From assembly GCA_020348065.1 (NCBI GenBank), contig CP070742.1:3481193-3524013 (forward strand): a stretch of 42,821 nt of DNA. Reading direction: 5' to 3'. This document shows positions 31,173-42,026 of this stretch, one piece after another (positions within the stretch are counted from its first letter, which is position 1; each line of letters starts with the position of its first letter). This DNA comes from Candidatus Zixiibacteriota bacterium (lineage in GTDB: Bacteria > Zixibacteria > MSB-5A5 > UBA10806). The notes beneath the pieces are model-generated. The model was not told the DNA's origin, did not search any database, and worked only from the letters and a program-made list of their open reading frames with translations. The position numbers and the translations under genes are program-made.

Positions 31173-31996
31173 TCCCACATAACCTCACCCGATTCAAATA
31201 CCGGCCCTTCGACACATACCCTTTTAAGATGATAATCACGGTTGTCGTCGGTTTCGCCGCGATCCGGAGAAGGCAAAACCTTTACCGCGCAACCGCTGCA
31301 GATGCCGTAACCACAGGGCATCAACTCCTCCAGCGAGAGAAAGCCGGGGATATTTTTTTCCAGGAGCAGCCGATCGATTTTTTTAAGCATCCCGACCGGC
31401 CCGCAGGCATAAATCGTAAAACCGCTTTTATTCTCAAGGATTTTCTCGAGCATATCGACGACGGTGCCTTTTTCGCCGGCTGATCCGTCATCGGTACATA
31501 CGTTTAGATCGGTCTCTAATTCGGTCAATTCAACAGGTTCGAAAAGCTCGGTTCTGGTTCTGGCCCCTGAGATAAAGGTTATCGAGCTAGATGGAACTCC
31601 GTTCTCGATCGCGAATTTCGAGAGTAAAAACAGGGGCGGCATCCCTGTGCCGCCTGCGGCCATGACCATTCCTCCGTCATTCGATGGTATGGGAAATCCG
31701 TTGCCCAGCGGTCCTAATATCTGAATTGTGTCGCCTTCTTTTTTCCCGGCGAGAAGACCGGTACCATAACCCGCCACTTTGAAAATTATCGAAATCTCGC
31801 CTTTTCGAGTATCCACATCATATATGGAAAAGGGACGCGGCCACAGCGGGATGAAATTATCGGAAACCCTGATCTGAATAAACTGCCCGGGAACGGTCGA
31901 TCTTGATATATCATCCGCCTTAAATGTTAATTGAATGATTGAATCGGATATGATTATATTTCGGGTAACAGGATAATGACCGCAGGACTTCCTCAC
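31169..31996 (-). CDS. pyrK: dihydroorotate dehydrogenase B, electron transfer subunit
   Basis: FAD/2Fe-2S protein joining PyrD to NAD+. The 275 residues have an FAD domain (GQFIQIRV, RPFSIYDVD), a NAD domain (GPLGNGFPI, MAAGGTGMPPLFLL, IYACGPVGMLK) and a C-terminal cluster site with four Cys (MPCGYGICSGCAVKV and RVCVEGP). The start codon is GTG, overlapping the upstream TPR gene by 4 nt, with GGAGG 8 nt before it. The pyrK-pyrD-pyrF order is conserved, which supports the class 1B enzyme. Confidence 0.95.
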   Translation of the reverse strand: MRKSCGHYPVTRNIIISDSIIQLTFKADDISRSTVPGQFIQIRVSDNFIPLWPRPFSIYDVDTRKGEISIIFKVAGYGTGLLAGKKEGDTIQILGPLGNGFPIPSNDGGMVMAAGGTGMPPLFLLSKFAIENGVPSSSITFISGARTRTELFEPVELTELETDLNVCTDDGSAGEKGTVVDMLEKILENKSGFTIYACGPVGMLKKIDRLLLEKNIPGFLSLEELMPCGYGICSGCAVKVLPSPDRGETDDNRDYHLKRVCVEGPVFESGEVMWE

Positions 31997-34572
31997 TGTT
32001 GTTCCTCCTCCCTCTTGTCTCTGTAGGGGTCGTTAAAAATATCGATTTCCGGCCGTTCGAAAAGAATGCTGTATATGAAGAACGAATCGAGCCGGGTGAA
32101 ATCGAGATCGGAGGTATCGAACTCGGTTTCCAGCAGGGCCGCGGTGGCGACAGAATCAATTGCCCTTTCCCCGGAGGGTCCTATTATTTCATAATCCTGT
32201 ACCCTGCCGGTTATATCGAGTTTAATCTTGAAAATAACCTGTCCTTTCAGGTCTTTGTCCAGAAGCTCCTCGGGATATAAAAATTCTCCGAGAGTCATAA
32301 CGCGCGGGGCACGGGGCAGTTCCATGGCCATCCTTCGTAGAGAATCCGGATCCACCTCCGGCTGTTCCGGCTCTTCGCGGGTCTCCTCTTCGCGTTCCTG
32401 TCGGGGTTGACGGTTCGCAGTTGTTCTGGATACCATACCGAGTTTTACCTTGGCAGCCTCGGCGTATTCTGTTTGAGGGTATTGATTGTTTACGGAGGTG
32501 TACGCGTGGTATGCCGAACTGTCGGTAACATTTAAAATATTATCCAGGGTCCAGGCCACGGCGAAGGAGGCTTTGGCCGATAGATCCGGGAAATTATCCG
32601 CTATATAGCGAAAGATCGCTATGGCGGAATCGGGATCGTTATCGTAATAAATCAGGCTCTCCGCCCTGGCGTACAATCCCACGGCGTTTTTCGAAAGATC
32701 CAGGGGATATTCGAGAATCTCCGACGCCTGAACCGCCTGGGGCGATCGGGGATACTCGTCTATTATTCTACGCAAAAGCAAATTGCCTCTCGCGGTGTCT
32801 TGTCTGTTGAATTCGATATTCGCCGCCGCCAGCAACGCTCTTATCGCAAATGGTGAGTCGGGATGTTCTTTAACCAGCAAAAGATATTCAGCCAACGCCG
32901 AATCCGGGCGGTTGAGCTCATAGGCATAAAGTTCCGCCAGCAAGAATCTCGTCTCGATACCCGATCTTATGATCTCCTGCCTGACGCTGTCCCTCCGCGC
33001 CGCTTCAACCGCCATAACGGAATCTTCGTTAATCTGCACCGAATCTAAGCCCGCCTCTATCAGCAAACTTTCGGGAAACGCGTATTGACCTGATGAATCC
33101 TCAACAGCCATGATGCTGTCCTCTACCTGAACAGGACCGATAAAGTCACCCGAACTGTCGTCCACAGATTCGGGCATGGGACCTATCACGATCTCCGTTG
33201 TATCCACCGATTTCAGGGTGTCGATCTCGACCGTTGCCGCTTTTAATGTATCAATCGCACTGCGTTCCGCCAGAAGGCTGTCGGGAGGAAGAATCACCGC
33301 CGCGGAATCGGGGGAGGAGGAAGTATCGGCCGAAATTGAATCCGGCTCCACGCCCTGCTCCGCCATTAACATTGAGTCCGCCCTTAGAAGCTCCATCTGG
33401 TACGATTCCAGCTTCGCTATCTGAGCGGATTTGCTCAGCGCCAGGTTTCTATATTCCGAAGTGTTGCTTTCGCTTTGCGCTTTTGTGAAGGCTTCCTTGG
33501 CTTTAGCGATATCAAACAAATCGTTTTGATATATTAAGCCGAGACGGTAATAGGCCTCTGCCGATTCATCCGTCCTGGGGGTTTGAACGGTAACATTGGT
33601 GTATTCTTCGGTCGCTTTCTCGATCTCTTCCTGAAGGTAATAGCCTTCCGCGATTTTCAACCTGATCCTGGAAGAATATTCGAAATATCTTTCATTTTTG
33701 GCGAGATCATCGAGAATCTTCATGCCCATATGCAAAGAATCCGTTTTTAAAACCGCCACCGCCGACGCCAGGGCGGCGTGAAAATAAAGCTCCCGGTCCG
33801 GATTATAATCCTTAACCCGGGAATAGGTCAGGTAGGCGTCATAATAATCTTCCGTCTCCTCTTTGCATTGTCCAATTAGAAACGTGGCTTTTGCCGACGA
33901 GTCCCCTTTGGGGAATTTTTCAAGATAAAGGTTAAACTGATCTATGGCGGCGGTGCAGTTTTTCTCATTTTTATCAATTTTACCTTTGGCGAAATAGATA
34001 TCGTCAATGTAAATGCTTTTGGGAAACATGCTTTCGACCTTGGCGAAAGCCTTATTGGCGAGTTCCTCGTTGCCGAGTTCGACCTGGCACAGGCCGGAGT
34101 AAAAATAGGAGTCATCGGCATACTTGGAATTCGGGTGATTGATAACCAGTTCCTGGAATTTCCTGTCCCCCAGAAGATAATCGCCCATATTGAAATAGGA
34201 CTTGCCGATAAGCCACAGAGCGTCATCGACATACTTGGATTCGGGATGGAATTTCAGGACCTTGCTGGCCTTTTTTATGGCGTCCTCGTAAAGTAGTTTA
34301 ACCTGCGGCGTAACAAGCGATTGCGACTGAGTCCCCCGATTTCCGCCGATATCCTTACGCCCCGTCTGGTAACGACTCCCGGCGCCCCCACCACCCCGTT
34401 GGTTTTGCCTGCCTACATTCTGCTGACTCTTGCGATTCTTTTTCTGAATATCCTCGGCCTCATTGAATTTCTTCTTGGCGTTGAAAAAGGTGTTGTAGTA
34501 AACGCATCCCGAGCCGAGAAAAACGGCGATAACCGTAACCGTTAACCATCGAATAATTCTAAATTTGGTCAT
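31993..34572 (-). CDS. TPR lipoprotein with TonB-like C-terminal domain
   Basis: 859 residues from ATG 34572. A signal sequence ends in LGSGC, giving a lipidated Cys23 followed by VYYNTFFNAKKKFNEAE. Many TPR-like helical repeats follow (for example PESKYVDDALWLIGKSYFNMGDY, PNSKYADDSYFYSGLCQVELG), as in BamD/YbgF-like envelope proteins. An Asp/Ser-rich linker and a second repeat block come next. The last ~100 residues (LLDKDLKGQVIFKIKLDITGRVQDYEII) resemble a TonB C-terminal domain. A periplasm-facing scaffold is likely. A more upstream ATG adds 13 residues before the signal peptide; neither start has a good ribosome binding site. The gene is coupled to pyrK by a 4-nt overlap, an unexpected partner. 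Confidence 0.8.
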   Translation of the reverse strand: MTKFRIIRWLTVTVIAVFLGSGCVYYNTFFNAKKKFNEAEDIQKKNRKSQQNVGRQNQRGGGGAGSRYQTGRKDIGGNRGTQSQSLVTPQVKLLYEDAIKKASKVLKFHPESKYVDDALWLIGKSYFNMGDYLLGDRKFQELVINHPNSKYADDSYFYSGLCQVELGNEELANKAFAKVESMFPKSIYIDDIYFAKGKIDKNEKNCTAAIDQFNLYLEKFPKGDSSAKATFLIGQCKEETEDYYDAYLTYSRVKDYNPDRELYFHAALASAVAVLKTDSLHMGMKILDDLAKNERYFEYSSRIRLKIAEGYYLQEEIEKATEEYTNVTVQTPRTDESAEAYYRLGLIYQNDLFDIAKAKEAFTKAQSESNTSEYRNLALSKSAQIAKLESYQMELLRADSMLMAEQGVEPDSISADTSSSPDSAAVILPPDSLLAERSAIDTLKAATVEIDTLKSVDTTEIVIGPMPESVDDSSGDFIGPVQVEDSIMAVEDSSGQYAFPESLLIEAGLDSVQINEDSVMAVEAARRDSVRQEIIRSGIETRFLLAELYAYELNRPDSALAEYLLLVKEHPDSPFAIRALLAAANIEFNRQDTARGNLLLRRIIDEYPRSPQAVQASEILEYPLDLSKNAVGLYARAESLIYYDNDPDSAIAIFRYIADNFPDLSAKASFAVAWTLDNILNVTDSSAYHAYTSVNNQYPQTEYAEAAKVKLGMVSRTTANRQPRQEREEETREEPEQPEVDPDSLRRMAMELPRAPRVMTLGEFLYPEELLDKDLKGQVIFKIKLDITGRVQDYEIIGPSGERAIDSVATAALLETEFDTSDLDFTRLDSFFIYSILFERPEIDIFNDPYRDKREEEQQ

Positions 34573-34680
34573 GCTATACATATATATATATTTTCGGACG
34601 ATCTGTTCCAAACAATATTTTGATTTTAAAACTTTTTGATTACGATACCGCTTTGAAAGGCGGAAACTTACAGAGACAGA

Positions 34681-34711
34681 AAAGCGCCCCGAAGACCGGT
34701 CCGGAGCGCTT
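34681..34711 (-). terminator. terminator after the four-gene membrane cluster
   Basis: Minus strand hairpin with outer arms AGCGCTCCGG and TTCGGGGCGCT (34711-34684), about 11 pairs including G-U, then TTTT. It lies 27 nt after the stop of the last gene of the cluster and just before the TPR gene's leader. Confidence 0.75.
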
Positions 34712-34737
34712 CGCTGCTCGCTTGATTCAGGCCAAGA

Positions 34738-35355
34738 TCAACCGCCGATAAATGCGGCTACTTCTCTTACATAATCCTTAAGGAATAAAATTCGTTGCAC
34801 CAATAGCGCCACGCGGCCCATAACCGTAAGGCCGAAACCGGCGCCAAATCCGATCATGAGCGTGTAAATGCCGATTTTCGATACAATATTGAAAGCTCCG
34901 GTGTGCGCCTTGGAAAAGAAGAAGTAAAACAGGGCACAGAGAACAAAAATCACCACCAGAACATTGCTGATCGAGGTGAAAGGTATTATCGTTGCTGAAA
35001 TTTGCCTGAATATATAGGTATACATGTAAACCGGTATCGAAACTCCCGTTGAAATTCCGATATAGAAAGCGATTGAATAGCGCGATATCCATGAATGCTT
35101 CTTTGAGAACCTGGTCCACATACCTATTCCAAGCAAAATCGGGATGATATAAGCATATTGGCCGGTTGCCATAGTATGGTAGACTTTATCAACAAATAGC
35201 TTATGAAATACGAGCATGGTCCAGTACCCTGCCGCAACTCCTGCCACAAGCCGCTCGGCGAATTTATAGAACGGATTGTCTTTGTAAAGGAAGGTAAAAA
35301 TACAGAGAGTCAGGAAGGCCGCAAGTCCATGCCAGATAATAGTTTCAAATTCCAT
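34738..35355 (-). CDS. polytopic membrane protein of unknown function (cluster gene 4)
   Basis: 205 residues with five or six membrane helices (for example GLAAFLTLCIFTFLY, YAYIIPILLGIGMW, VLVVIFVLCALFYFFFS, IYTLMIGFGAGFGLTVMG). I do not recognise the family. GGAGG lies 5 nt before the ATG. It follows the preceding gene by 9 nt and ends the cluster before a terminator. Charged residues are few and mostly in short loops; there is no enzyme motif, so a structural or transport-complex subunit is plausible. Confidence 0.8.
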   Translation of the reverse strand: MEFETIIWHGLAAFLTLCIFTFLYKDNPFYKFAERLVAGVAAGYWTMLVFHKLFVDKVYHTMATGQYAYIIPILLGIGMWTRFSKKHSWISRYSIAFYIGISTGVSIPVYMYTYIFRQISATIIPFTSISNVLVVIFVLCALFYFFFSKAHTGAFNIVSKIGIYTLMIGFGAGFGLTVMGRVALLVQRILFLKDYVREVAAFIGG

Positions 35356-35364
35356 TGCGTCCTC

Positions 35365-36189
35365 CTAAGTCCTCTTTTTTCTTTTCGATGCGAAGTAACC
35401 GATATTTGAAATAATTATGAATAAAAGTATTACGCCGTGCGAAAGTGTCTGGTACGGAATTGACCTGAGACCGGTAGTCTCAAAGCCGGAGAGAACTTCG
35501 TATTCAGCGGCGCCTTTTATTCCCGGTATCAGGCCGAATATTTGCCCGGATTGTAAATACTGGTAATAATCGGCTCCCATAACCCCGGTAACTCCCAAAG
35601 CTAGCGGGAAACCGAATCGGCCGTTTCCGTATGTGATCCAGAAATCAGCAACATTCCCCGCAGTCAACGATATTACACCCTTTACGTCCTGAAGATTTCT
35701 AATACCTTGCATAATTTCTAGCGAATCAACCGGCACGCCGTAATAATCCAGGGGAAAAGTTACTTGGAAATCAAGACCCATAGAAAGGATTGTAATTGCC
35801 GGATAAGGCCGATAACCTAGAAAACAGTAATCTTTGCCGGATTCTTTCCCATATTGCTGTGCAACCTCTGTTAACCTCAACTCGGCCATGGCCGGTCCGA
35901 ACTGCGAAAGGCACGCGGTAATTACATTAACATCTTTTGAGAATGCGTGATTCAATATTGCGTATGTCATCGGATCGAGTTCCGCCAAGGTGGACGGGTC
36001 GTAATCGATCCCGAGGTAAATATAGTCTCCGGCTTCGCACGACTCCACGAAATCATAAATTCTTTCCACTTCGAGAGTCGTTGAAACAGGCACTTTGAAG
36101 GGTATTATGGCCGGAATTATAACCACTATACCGATGCAGAGGTAGACCCAGCGCCTGTCTATATTCATCAGTTTATCCCAGAATGTCAT
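35365..36189 (-). CDS. membrane-anchored protein of unknown function (cluster gene 3)
   Basis: 274 residues with one N-terminal helix (~17-35, LCIGIVVIIPAIIPF), a ~205-residue soluble domain, and a C-terminal helix (~245-265, GVILLFIIISNIGYF) with a basic tail KRKKRT. The tail implies that the soluble domain is outside the cytoplasm. That domain opens with EVERIYDFVESCEAGDYI and has QFGPAMAELRLTEVAQQYG and VMGADYYQYLQSGQ. By eye it shares an order of motifs with the C-terminal domain of the first cluster gene. A strong Shine-Dalgarno (GAGGAGG, 6 nt spacing) precedes the ATG. No known function. Confidence 0.8.
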   Translation of the reverse strand: MTFWDKLMNIDRRWVYLCIGIVVIIPAIIPFKVPVSTTLEVERIYDFVESCEAGDYIYLGIDYDPSTLAELDPMTYAILNHAFSKDVNVITACLSQFGPAMAELRLTEVAQQYGKESGKDYCFLGYRPYPAITILSMGLDFQVTFPLDYYGVPVDSLEIMQGIRNLQDVKGVISLTAGNVADFWITYGNGRFGFPLALGVTGVMGADYYQYLQSGQIFGLIPGIKGAAEYEVLSGFETTGLRSIPYQTLSHGVILLFIIISNIGYFASKRKKRT

Positions 36190-36201
36190 TTGCGGCCTCC
36201 T

Positions 36202-36819
36202 CTAATCATGTCCAAGATAGGTACGTTCAATTCCCAGTATTATCTTTATACAGGTCGCGATGGCGCCCAGGCCGACACCCATGGTTATGGCCCGTTTGGC
36301 CGCCATATTTGGTATGGCTAGAATCCAGGCCACTCCATATTGGTTAACCTCCGAAATGGGACCCAGGGGAAGGAGTCTTGCCATGATTATAAAGGCTGTT
36401 AAAAGCAGTATTGTCGCGAGCACCGTCCTGGCCCTGAACGCCCTGTAAGCAGCGCTGGCAACATAAAAAGCAAGCAAGGAAAAGATTGTGGCCTGAATAG
36501 GTATCAGAACATTCTCGAATATATCGAACATAAGACTGCCGGCCTCGAGGTTCTCCGCTTTCAGGCCTGTAAAAATCATTATGAAAAAACCGAATAGGAG
36601 AACAGCCGCGTAAAATCTTTCCTTGGGGTCTTTTAATTTTCTGAACTCCGATCTGAGAAGGGACCAGATACCTAAGGCCAACGCGAAGATCCCCACAACG
36701 ATAACCCAGTCATTGGCGTAGGTGAACAGCCAATCGGATTCTTCCGAAGGGATAAAATACTGGACTATCATTATGATACCGGAGCCGAAAACGAAATATA
36801 TCGGTATTTGTTTTCTCAT
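36202..36819 (-). CDS. polytopic membrane protein of unknown function (cluster gene 2)
   Basis: 205 residues with about six membrane helices (for example YFVFGSGIIMIVQYF, VIVVGIFALALGIW, FYAAVLLFGFFIMIF, ILLLTAFIIMARLLP). A cytoplasm-type basic loop (RSEFRKLKDPKERF) separates helices 2 and 3. I do not recognise the family. It lies 15 nt after the first cluster gene and 12 nt before the third, and has the same length as cluster gene 4, but no clear sequence match to it. Confidence 0.8.
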   Translation of the reverse strand: MRKQIPIYFVFGSGIIMIVQYFIPSEESDWLFTYANDWVIVVGIFALALGIWSLLRSEFRKLKDPKERFYAAVLLFGFFIMIFTGLKAENLEAGSLMFDIFENVLIPIQATIFSLLAFYVASAAYRAFRARTVLATILLLTAFIIMARLLPLGPISEVNQYGVAWILAIPNMAAKRAITMGVGLGAIATCIKIILGIERTYLGHD

Positions 36820-36834
36820 TTTCTGTCTTTACCT

Positions 36835-38067
36835 CTAAATATTAACTGTTACCATGTCTCTAATAAAAGATAAGTTAGCTGAAATCAATATGGCTCCTAT
36901 TAAAAGTAATAGCATCAGGATCGCCTTGCCCCAGTCCTGCGCTTTTAAAGTCCCTACGAGAATGGGTTCCTTGGAAAGATAGGCGCTGGCTGCGTATAGC
37001 TCCTCTCCAATTAAAGTATAGTCAGTTGCTGCTATAAAGAAAGGAAGCTGCGATATCTGGTCGGTACCGGAAATCTGTATCGAACCTGCGATATTACCGG
37101 TTTCAGCGAGAATAAGCGATTCGGCATGAAATACCCCCATATAGAAATTGGTAGCGGTGCGCTCTCTTAGCATTATTCCATTAACCGCTGCCACATACGG
37201 GAACTGCATGGCGGTTTCGTAAGAGATCAGTTCCGGTTTATAAATATCGGGACGTCCGGCTTCAAGATACGCCGTACGAACTGTTTCCTGTGCGACCGCC
37301 ATCATAACCGGTTCGTTGACCGGCACCAGGATCTTGGTCTGGTATTCAGCGGTTAATTTCGCCACCCTCGAGAGAATCGTAAAGCCCGCTATTGTAGCTA
37401 TATCTCCGGCGGTACCGGTGCCGAGAACGAATAGAATTGGACGGCCCATCTCGGTTGCGCGGCCGATAGCGTCATCTACAGCATTAATTCCCGCAAGCGG
37501 ACGCACATAGAAATCTTTTCCACCACGGGCCTTAAAAATGAAGTAGACTACAAACGACCAGAATATCAGTACGCCCACAAGAATTCCTATTTTACCGCTG
37601 TGGAACCAGTTCTCTATGGCTTGCCCGGATGCGATCTCTGAATGTTCCGAAAAAATCCCTCCGGCGGCCATAGAACGTACTTTGTAATAATAGGTTTTTT
37701 CGGTTTCAATGAAGTCCGGATTGGGAACGCCGTTTTTGATAGGAGAATCGTCTTGATCCTCGTATTCATCGCTACCTTTGATGGCCATCCCCACATATGA
37801 ATACTCGCCGTCAGGCGAGTCAGAACGATAGACTTCGTATCCGAGCACATTATCCATACCGGCGCCGTCATCTGGAGACAAATCCCATCTAACTATTACA
37901 CCGTGACCATCATCGTCTGGTTTATCTTCAACATAGACGTTGGATGGCGATGTCGGAACGGGGGGGCCGGTTGTGTCTGTCAATACCTCCTCTAAGGGCG
38001 TCTGCGCGTTTCCAACGGCAAATAACAAAAGAGAAAGCAACAACATGAAAAGCATTTTTTTCCCCAT
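36835..38067 (-). CDS. secreted fibronectin type III / DUF6754-like membrane protein (cluster gene 1)
   Basis: 410 residues. A signal peptide (MGKKMLFMLLLSLLLFAVGNAQ) is followed by a fibronectin type III-like domain (~35-150: GVIVRWDLSPDDGA, LGYEVYRSDSPDGEYSYVG, YYYKVRSMAAGG). A membrane helix (~158-178, IGILVGVLIFWSFVVYFIF), a conserved domain (~190-375: GRPILFVLGTGTAGDIATIAGF, VPVNEPVMMAVAQETV, GNIAGSIQISGTDQ) and a last helix complete it. The conserved domain resembles what I remember as DUF6754; no function is known. GAAGGAG precedes the ATG. Confidence 0.8.
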   Translation of the reverse strand: MGKKMLFMLLLSLLLFAVGNAQTPLEEVLTDTTGPPVPTSPSNVYVEDKPDDDGHGVIVRWDLSPDDGAGMDNVLGYEVYRSDSPDGEYSYVGMAIKGSDEYEDQDDSPIKNGVPNPDFIETEKTYYYKVRSMAAGGIFSEHSEIASGQAIENWFHSGKIGILVGVLIFWSFVVYFIFKARGGKDFYVRPLAGINAVDDAIGRATEMGRPILFVLGTGTAGDIATIAGFTILSRVAKLTAEYQTKILVPVNEPVMMAVAQETVRTAYLEAGRPDIYKPELISYETAMQFPYVAAVNGIMLRERTATNFYMGVFHAESLILAETGNIAGSIQISGTDQISQLPFFIAATDYTLIGEELYAASAYLSKEPILVGTLKAQDWGKAILMLLLLIGAILISANLSFIRDMVTVNI

Positions 38068-40004: not shown

Positions 40005-42026
40005 TTAATGGGTTCCCACTATCTTAAACAGCCGGCCTTCGCCGGGGCCGAGGACGGTGGTGAACGGTATAGTGCCGTCGGGCATCTTGGCGGAGTAGGT
40101 GGTGTCGGGGATGGCTACCCAGCCTGTATCACCGCCCGCAAGGCGTAACGAATCCGCGAGGTCGATGATATATACATAATTGCCGAGGCCAAGGTCGGTG
40201 GGGTCAAATTTGACGGTGGCTGTTATTGAAGGCGCGGCCGTAGAATCGTTCTCCCCCTGAGAGCAGGCGCGGTTGACCAATAGAATATACTTGTCACTGC
40301 CCGATATAAACTCGCCTGCCTGAAACCAACCGAGGTCGGGATTGGGAAGGGTATCATTGGAAACGGCATATATCGTATCTATAAAGGCAGTATCAGGAGG
40401 ATTGAGTCCCAAACCAGCACTGTCAGAGACAACATAGCTCCCCTTCCAAGTAAGCGAAAGAAATGTCGAATCAATGGCCTTGATGTAAGGATTGATGTCG
40501 TCTTTAACGACATCATACATATAGTGATGGGAACCATCGTCGTTTACCAGACCCCGCGAGCCGCTATTCTTCGCATAATACCAATTTTGATCGTATTTCC
40601 AGAACATGATCCCCATCGGCCGATAGCACAAACCGATAAAAGTCTCGCAGATCATCTCGGATCGCGTGGGGAACCGCCATATCCAGGTAGTATCTCCAGG
40701 GCCAGTGCTGTCTCTTCCGGCAAAATACTGGGGAGTAAACATCCACGATGAATCTTCAATTTCAGATCTTGCCAGGGATGCCATGAGGGAATCACACTGC
40801 TCTGCTAAAGATTCATTAAATTCAAACTGCAGGCCTCTTTCGTGAGGAGTCCCCTGACGATGGAAATAACCGGTATATTTAGTAGTGCGCGCTCCACCGA
40901 AACCCCCAAAGAAACAATAGGGATTGGCCCATATTCTATTAGGATTGCCATCCCTGATAAAATCATTTAGCCCCTTATATGCCTGACCGCCGCATCCCAG
41001 GCAGAAATTCGTCGTGGCTCTTACAGGCTCAGTCCAGCTCGACTCGGCCATGGCCACCTGAATCAGGCTGTCGATGTATCCGTAGGGCCTGTAGTTCCCG
41101 GGGCGCGGCTCATCCTTCAGATACCAGCCCAATACCTTGCCGTCAAAATCGGCCTTGCGACCAACATAGGCTTTTATCTGATTAGCTATCGTAGAGTCTG
41201 AATTATCCCCCATTAGATCATAACCGAACTGGCAATGAACCTTGAAATAATCTATGAATACCGTGCAGTTGCCGGCGGTCTTAAACCGGAATTTAATTTT
41301 CGGGGAATCAACCGAATTTTCGTTGTCCAGAACATAGTAATAATCGAGAGAATAAGTTATCGATGAATCCCAATCGTTGGTTAACGATAAAAGGACAAGA
41401 GTATCTTCGTCGGCCGGTAGATCCCTGACGAAAAGAGTGTCGGCGAATCGCATAGAGTCGGCGGTACTGTCTTCCATATTTAAAACGTAGAAGATGCCCA
41501 CTACGGTGCTGCTGTCTGTCTGAGACGTGTCTCGCTCAATCATCATCTTTAGATACGGATAGTATCTAATCTGGGCATCTCCCATCATCCACTGCCTGTT
41601 CTCCTGCCGGAAATAAAGCCCGTCCAGCATGAAATCGTCACCGTCGTAAACCAGAACAGTATCTCCCTGCACGGTGCCGTTTCTGGTCTCGAATTTGAAA
41701 TCCGAGTAGTCGTCTTCAGCGTCACAAATATAATAGGTCGAGTGCGCGTATTTCTGTTGCGGTCTCATTATCGGCGCGGTCCCCCAGGGATAAACATATA
41801 TCCCCTTAGAGGCGAACCTGTCGGCATGATAGCCGGTAAACCCGCCGCCCATAAACTGGTTTATGCCCAGCTCATCATGCATAACCTCCAAACAGGAATC
41901 GCTAAAAAATATATCCGTATATGCAGGGTGAGATGAATAACCGCCGAAAGGCATTACATACTCATCTATTAGCTGGGCAAAGCATAATGCCGGTAAGATC
42001 AAAATGACCAAAAGAGTTCTTATCAT
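40005..42026 (-). CDS. secreted protein with glycoside-hydrolase-like TIM-barrel features
   Basis: 673 residues with a clear signal peptide (MIRTLLVILILPALCFAQ). The acidic, Asp/Ser-rich middle contains beta-sandwich-like strands (~190-260), followed by GKVLGWYLKDEPRPGNY, a motif seen in TIM-barrel glycosidase-like domains where the Glu could be an acid/base. The C-terminal ~100 residues look like a beta-sandwich (YILLVNRACSQGE, GPGEGRLFKIVG). No sorting domain or anchor is present. Substrate and family are not recognised. It lies 9 nt after the partial gene upstream. Confidence 0.65.
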   Translation of the reverse strand: MIRTLLVILILPALCFAQLIDEYVMPFGGYSSHPAYTDIFFSDSCLEVMHDELGINQFMGGGFTGYHADRFASKGIYVYPWGTAPIMRPQQKYAHSTYYICDAEDDYSDFKFETRNGTVQGDTVLVYDGDDFMLDGLYFRQENRQWMMGDAQIRYYPYLKMMIERDTSQTDSSTVVGIFYVLNMEDSTADSMRFADTLFVRDLPADEDTLVLLSLTNDWDSSITYSLDYYYVLDNENSVDSPKIKFRFKTAGNCTVFIDYFKVHCQFGYDLMGDNSDSTIANQIKAYVGRKADFDGKVLGWYLKDEPRPGNYRPYGYIDSLIQVAMAESSWTEPVRATTNFCLGCGGQAYKGLNDFIRDGNPNRIWANPYCFFGGFGGARTTKYTGYFHRQGTPHERGLQFEFNESLAEQCDSLMASLARSEIEDSSWMFTPQYFAGRDSTGPGDTTWIWRFPTRSEMICETFIGLCYRPMGIMFWKYDQNWYYAKNSGSRGLVNDDGSHHYMYDVVKDDINPYIKAIDSTFLSLTWKGSYVVSDSAGLGLNPPDTAFIDTIYAVSNDTLPNPDLGWFQAGEFISGSDKYILLVNRACSQGENDSTAAPSITATVKFDPTDLGLGNYVYIIDLADSLRLAGGDTGWVAIPDTTYSAKMPDGTIPFTTVLGPGEGRLFKIVGTH

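Follow-up and report, generated by a model that had tools for sequence, protein, structure and literature searches.

The window, the 42,821-nucleotide stretch of contig CP070742.1 of a Candidatus Zixiibacteriota bacterium that was analysed here, contains four genes, designated D, M1, E and M2. Their products are in all likelihood obligate components of a single complex in the inner membrane, very probably a hitherto undescribed machine. The genes lie tail to head on the minus strand, and all four open reading frames were found where a first-pass annotation, made from the letters of the window, had placed four adjacent genes with gaps of 9 to 15 nt; the gaps measured 15, 12 and 9 nt. Strong ribosome binding sites had been assigned to three of the genes, and a Shine-Dalgarno-like purine-rich stretch could be read from the sequence 5' of all four starts (AAGGAG for D, AGAGG for M1, GGAGG for E and AGGAGG for M2). 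The common terminator that had been proposed corresponded to a terminator-like hairpin and T run directly past M2, with equally good folds in 5 of 200 shuffles, though this hairpin was absent from a simple terminator pattern scan (Table 1). Gene D had been described as fibronectin/DUF6754-like, and it was found to combine an FN3 domain with a match to PF20539 (DUF6754) at an E value of 3.9e-110 (367.4 bits against a curated cut-off of 27), covering model positions 3 to 255 of 257. No significant Pfam or NCBIfam match was detected for M1, E or M2. Hydropathy and charge bias agreed with the topology claimed earlier, namely, two polytopic proteins of about 205 residues and a doubly anchored E protein.

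Table 1. Features of the four-gene unit in the window (TM, transmembrane helix)
Feature	Positions	Strand	Description	Basis
Gene D	36835-38067	-	410 aa; signal peptide or anchor, exterior FN3, TM, cytoplasmic DUF6754 domain, TM	Open reading frame, PF20539 match, AlphaFold2 model, topology
FN3 domain of D, residues 35-153	37609-37965	-	Predicted exterior	Charge bias; VIA match to 3p4l, sequence match to 3mpc
DUF6754 part of D plus both flanking TM, residues 152-404	36856-37614	-	Soluble part Rossmann-like by element order, predicted cytoplasmic	Pfam, DSSP, charge bias
Gene M1	36202-36819	-	205 aa; six TM, N-in/C-in; no family match	Positive-inside bias
Gene E	35365-36189	-	274 aa; large exterior domain between two TM; basic C terminus inside; no family match	
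Exterior Rossmann-like domain of E, residues 34-238	35476-36090	-		AlphaFold2 model, VIA fold comparison
Gene M2	34738-35355	-	205 aa; six TM, probably N-out (sense opposite to M1); no family match	
Terminator-like hairpin 3' of M2	34671-34737		Minus strand; -30.7 kcal/mol, z -2.48	

The source genome, a single contig of 3.74 Mb, contains five DUF6754 genes, all over the PF20539 cut-off, and each of these heads its own D-M1-E-M2 unit. The units are located in the window and at ~916 kb, 1,258 kb, 1,264 kb and 1,605 kb. Identities of the paralogues to the window copy were 43 to 52% for D, 38 to 48% for M1, 31 to 46% for E and 40 to 45% for M2. Alignment indicated that the exterior part of D is variable, the FN3-like stretch being absent in the 1,605-kb copy and long in the 1,264-kb copy. 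Genes for NfeD, SPFH (Band 7) and CBS-domain proteins were observed between the two same-strand copies at 1,258 and 1,264 kb (L013:11322-13192). These paralogous units, and the co-inherited partners found elsewhere in the genome (see below), extend beyond what the first-pass annotation saw. As five paralogous clusters occur in the source genome and the order is conserved elsewhere, the four-gene arrangement exceeds what chance would produce.

Relatives of the unit were widely distributed. When genome contigs were scanned with D, at least 581 stretches matched, of which at least 575 were confirmed as relatives, and the best 79 loci were kept. Judged by title, these 79 loci came from Zixibacteria, GN15, Eisenbacteria, WOR-3/Stahlbacteria, Latescibacterota, CSSED10-310, Edwardsbacteria, TA06, Coatesbacteria, Poribacteria, Fermentibacteria, UBP2 and Armatimonadota, i.e., about a dozen phylum-level groups. 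DUF6754 was detected in all 132 genomes of the source phylum (1 to 6 matches each), in 24 of 24 named representatives (1 to 7 matches each), in all 39 genomes of the poribacterial phylum, mostly as a single copy, and in 107 of 121 Armatimonadota genomes; none of 14 well-known control genomes contained it. No relative was found in viral contigs or plasmids, and a virus or plasmid origin was rejected on this ground.

Gene order was counted in the window, L012-L014 and L015-L093, which hold 134 D genes, 16 of which were set aside as cut by a contig or locus end. Synteny in relatives had been proposed as a check by the first-pass annotation, and D was followed by M1, E and M2 in that order for 112 of the 118 evaluable genes, across phyla; the loci were found via D, and this count is silent on M1, E or M2 occurring without it. 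The six exceptions comprised a D gene alone (L039), two loci without the last one or two recognised genes (L067 and L023), two D genes in tandem (L069) and two loci with a gene split or doubled (L049 and L030). Units were present singly or in tandem blocks of two or three, with small gaps or overlaps between the genes. Poribacterial and armatimonadote loci had the same order, with one gene unrecognised or merged into a longer frame in L112, L113 and L119. In most Armatimonadota the D frames were too short to accommodate FN3.

The four genes also appeared to evolve together. Distance matrices of the four genes correlated at 0.71 to 0.83 among 104 complete units. The same nearest foreign unit was obtained for 366 of 624 gene pairs, while a null of 60 shuffles, in which genes were swapped between units of one locus, averaged 214 and did not exceed 252. 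This excess over the within-locus shuffle indicated that the genes of one unit stay together even among paralogues. Presence and absence of E were examined in 21 Armatimonadota genomes; E was detected in 7 of 7 with D and in 1 of 14 without D. The latter genome (G233) has M2-E-M1 on a contig that ends inside M1, and hence its D gene is probably just missing from the assembly. Synteny, joint presence and absence and within-unit co-evolution all supported the earlier proposal of a candidate undescribed complex; that the complex is physical and stoichiometric is what we infer from these data.

Common neighbours, some of them named by reading of the sequence, differed by phylum, with PPDK and acetyl-CoA synthetase in Zixibacteria, aroK/aroB in Poribacteria and ExbB/ExbD in WOR-3, and no function was assigned from them. 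The window unit is flanked upstream by a glutamine synthetase gene on the other strand and just downstream by a gene for an 872-aa TPR protein with a TonB_C-like C-terminal domain (31993-34611), neither of which was among the recurrent neighbours in the clustered loci. The gene at 40005-42026 encodes a protein of 673 aa that is probably secreted and for which Pfam gave no match below an E value of 0.05.

Structures were predicted with alignment-based AlphaFold2, with a mean predicted local distance difference test score of 96.4 and a predicted template modelling score of 0.90 for E, and 92.7 and 0.77 for D. In the DSSP lines of both models, the soluble domain, which lies between two TM helices, consisted of a helix followed by six strand-helix steps; the deviations from this common order were a short third strand in D and two helices after the third strand in E. 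Charge bias, calculated over 63 to 95 sequences, placed the D domain inside and the E domain outside (net charge of the D flank past the first TM helix, +4.05 over 82 sequences), M1 N-in/C-in and M2 most likely N-out. M1 and M2 together have twelve TM helices by hydropathy and charge bias. The FN3 domain of D matched 3p4l in VIA (Z 14.0, root mean square deviation [rmsd] 1.8, 98 aligned residues) and 3mpc by sequence (E value 0.0023). For the E domain the best VIA match was 1kjn (Z 9.9, rmsd 3.5, 138 aligned), followed by the epsilon subunit of carbon monoxide dehydrogenase (CODH; Z 9.7) and the RCK domains of TrkA (Z 9.2, rmsd 3.6, 135 aligned) and MthK (Z 9.0, rmsd 2.7, 116 aligned). As models without a clear match typically reach a best Z of 7 to 8 in VIA, these values name a fold class and not a family.

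Searches for more specific relatives were negative. Foldseek returned no match to E below 1e-3, and the fold search with D produced almost only FN3 matches, which crowded out the DUF6754 domain. The PDB sequence search detected no convincing relative of E, M1 or M2, and for D detected only FN3; when every member of the sets A6, A7 and A8, compiled for E, M1 and M2, was scanned against Pfam, the few matches were weak, sporadic and to unrelated families. A weak MamI match of M1 covered 16 residues and was dropped. Homology to an already described complex had been named as a point to check by the first-pass annotation, and by these sequence comparisons M1, E and M2 appear to have neither a Pfam family nor a PDB relative. 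Sequence homology between D and E or between M1 and M2 was not supported by local and global hhalign comparisons with reversed profiles as the control; an inverted gene duplication is therefore not claimed. Conserved polar residues were observed in alignments of 120 to 122 sequences: R189, R203, E206, Q288, R301, E316, E322, Q331, Q340, D349, E356, Y363, D378 and K381 of D and E70, Q216 and E231 of E were kept in at least 99% of sequences, and D120 and D148 of E in 95 to 99%.

Clustering of neighbours identified four further genes at these loci, c0 (13 loci), MutL (11 loci), c4 (8 loci) and c7 (5 loci), which occur in operons of the form c7-c4-MutL-c0-D-M1-E-M2 or, in Armatimonadota, c7-c4-D-M1-E-M2. 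The MutL family is a relative of the ASKHA ATPases and an accessory of a B12-dependent enzyme. Among 48 genomes, c4, which encodes a small cytosolic protein, was present in all 34 that have D and in none of the 14 (G233 included) in which D was not detected, and MutL was over the cut-off in 33 of 34 and 4 of 14, respectively. In the source phylum, c0 was detected in 120 of 129 genomes and in 77 of 78 good genomes. These three genes were mostly single copy, while the D-M1-E-M2 units were often multiple. The MutL partner matched PF13941 at 1e-124 (417.2 bits against a gathering score of 27) and scored below the NCBIfam cut-offs for the GlmL equivalog (223.6 against 475) and for glmL_fam (171.3 against 204). 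No Pfam family exceeded its cut-off for c0, c4 or c7; the barrel-sandwich match of c0 to RnfC_N was subthreshold (21.2 bits against 25.6), as was that of a MutL-c0 fusion to NQRA_N (23.9 bits against a curated cut-off of 25). This fusion, a 947-aa protein joining MutL to a c0-like barrel-sandwich protein, was found in one genome (L130:3465-6308), and long frames of this kind with weak c0 matches were observed in six more genomes of the source phylum. MutL and c0 were also observed before a Tol-Pal-like operon in L131:6263-14098 (MotA/TolQ/ExbB, ExbD/TolR, a TolB-like propeller and an OmpA-like protein) and, judged by resemblance to that locus, in L133:11125-19251. It is moderately probable that the association of c4, c0 and MutL with the unit is functional.

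The constant order, the joint presence and absence, the co-evolution as a unit and the repeated duplication of the whole block led to the interpretation of D, M1, E and M2 as one complex. M1 and M2, most likely in opposite orientations, are predicted to form the membrane core, D to carry a Rossmann-like domain into the cytoplasm and FN3 modules on the exterior, and E to present outside a domain whose elements follow the order seen in D. At the cytoplasmic face, the complex would be assisted by a module, mostly single copy, that consists of c4, the putative barrel-sandwich protein c0 and the ASKHA-type ATPase relative MutL. As one cytosolic partner is related to ASKHA ATPases, ATP-dependent work across the membrane is suggested; changes in the c4/c0/MutL module may pass through D and M1/M2 to E, and the complex may move something through the envelope or assemble something there. 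Paralogous units, varying in the FN3 part that lies outside, could then serve different substrates or sites while using one shared cytosolic module. The chances that complex plus cytosolic module is the full explanation are about even, and we are equally divided on the wider picture of a core envelope machine of D-M1-E-M2 with c7, c4, c0 and MutL, carried by almost all genomes of several phyla, in which Rossmann-like domains are mirrored across the membrane, an ATPase module is shared and the variants differ outside. An ATP-driven mechanism as such is doubtful.

Several observations weigh against this interpretation. The source genome has five units but no MutL by PF13941, while a congener has it; MutL is either dispensable or absent from the 95%-complete source assembly. 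Of the 13 Armatimonadota from which D seems genuinely absent, 3 also had MutL over the cut-off, and the c0 gene and the c7-c4 pair of the source genome lie far from every unit. The mirrored design of D and E is a prediction from just the order of elements and the charge bias, and the ATPase activity, the substrate and physical contact are all putative.

The absence of MutL from the source genome, together with the twelve TM helices of M1 and M2 and the RCK domains of TrkA and MthK among the best matches to E (Z 9.2 and 9.0), would fit a ligand-gated channel or transporter without an ATPase, in which M1 and M2 form the pore and D on the inside and E on the outside act as RCK-like gates. However, the Rossmann folds of CODH epsilon, UbiX and dehydrogenases reach equal scores, so that the likeness to E is generic. 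Foldseek gave no match to E below 1e-3, and the E domain is predicted to be exterior, whereas RCK domains are cytoplasmic. M1 and M2 had no Pfam channel match, no search for a selectivity-filter motif having been made. Overall, a channel is unlikely. A membrane enzyme, with active sites for cofactor or lipid chemistry on the two faces and with M1/M2 holding or passing the substrate, could account for the near-invariant polar residues of D and E and for their Rossmann-like folds, as such folds often bind cofactors. No catalytic or cofactor family was detected by Pfam or NCBIfam, however, and many conserved positions are small residues, which are also suited to assembly interfaces; we consider an enzyme quite improbable.

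Little probability is likewise given to an envelope scaffold with a structural or sensing function, either resembling a raft or in contact with the wall, with the exterior FN3 modules conferring specificity on the paralogues. The exterior is indeed variable, as FN3 differs in size, is missing from one unit of the source genome and has no room in most D proteins of Armatimonadota, and the NfeD and SPFH genes between two source-genome units and the position of MutL/c0 in L131 and L133, adjacent to a Tol-Pal-like operon, are consistent with such a role. Neighbourhoods differ between phyla, however, and a scaffold leaves the co-inherited MutL and c0 unexplained. Finally, contact among the four proteins is deduced from genes, and they could be co-transcribed members of one pathway that form no single complex. 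This is very unlikely, in that the order is almost never broken, gaps and overlaps are small, evolution is unit-wise and all four are membrane proteins.

An inner-membrane complex of D, M1, E and M2 would be of interest since a core membrane complex carried by virtually every member of entire phyla, with as many as seven copies in a genome, has normally long been known. This one seems to have been overlooked because most carriers are uncultured. A search of the literature outside subscription journals returned no paper naming DUF6754 or PF20539, and the main text, as distinct from the supplements, of a survey (PMC10849945) devoted to the unknown genes that uncultivated taxa carry made no mention of Zixibacteria, WOR-3, Poribacteria or Armatimonadota.

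Comparison with known systems indicated that only DUF6754 of the unit is already catalogued, as a Pfam family without a function; D spans this domain over nearly its full length, whereas for M1, E, M2 and the partners c0, c4 and c7 no Pfam match reached the cut-off. An anti-phage defence system was rejected, as PADLOC assigned none of the four proteins to a family. A possible resemblance to Rnf/Na+-NQR lies in the barrel-sandwich matches of c0 and of the MutL-c0 fusion to RnfC_N and NQRA_N, below the curated cut-offs. NqrD and NqrE are also two six-TM subunits of about 200 aa in opposite senses, and they have conserved cysteines, whereas the conserved columns of neither M1 nor M2 included a Cys. 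RCK potassium channels (TrkA/TrkH and MthK) likewise combine a membrane core with Rossmann-like domains, and E resembles RCK at a Z of about 9; however, the domains of the unit are predicted on both faces, no sequence relation was found and the likeness of fold is common to unrelated Rossmann folds. The MutL partner matches the MutL/GlmL family (PF13941; TIGR01319) through PF13941 and differs from it in falling below both NCBIfam cut-offs, in its length of about 600 aa compared to a model of 450 positions and in its linkage to a membrane complex. A second role, beyond that of an accessory to a B12-dependent enzyme, is probable for the MutL family.

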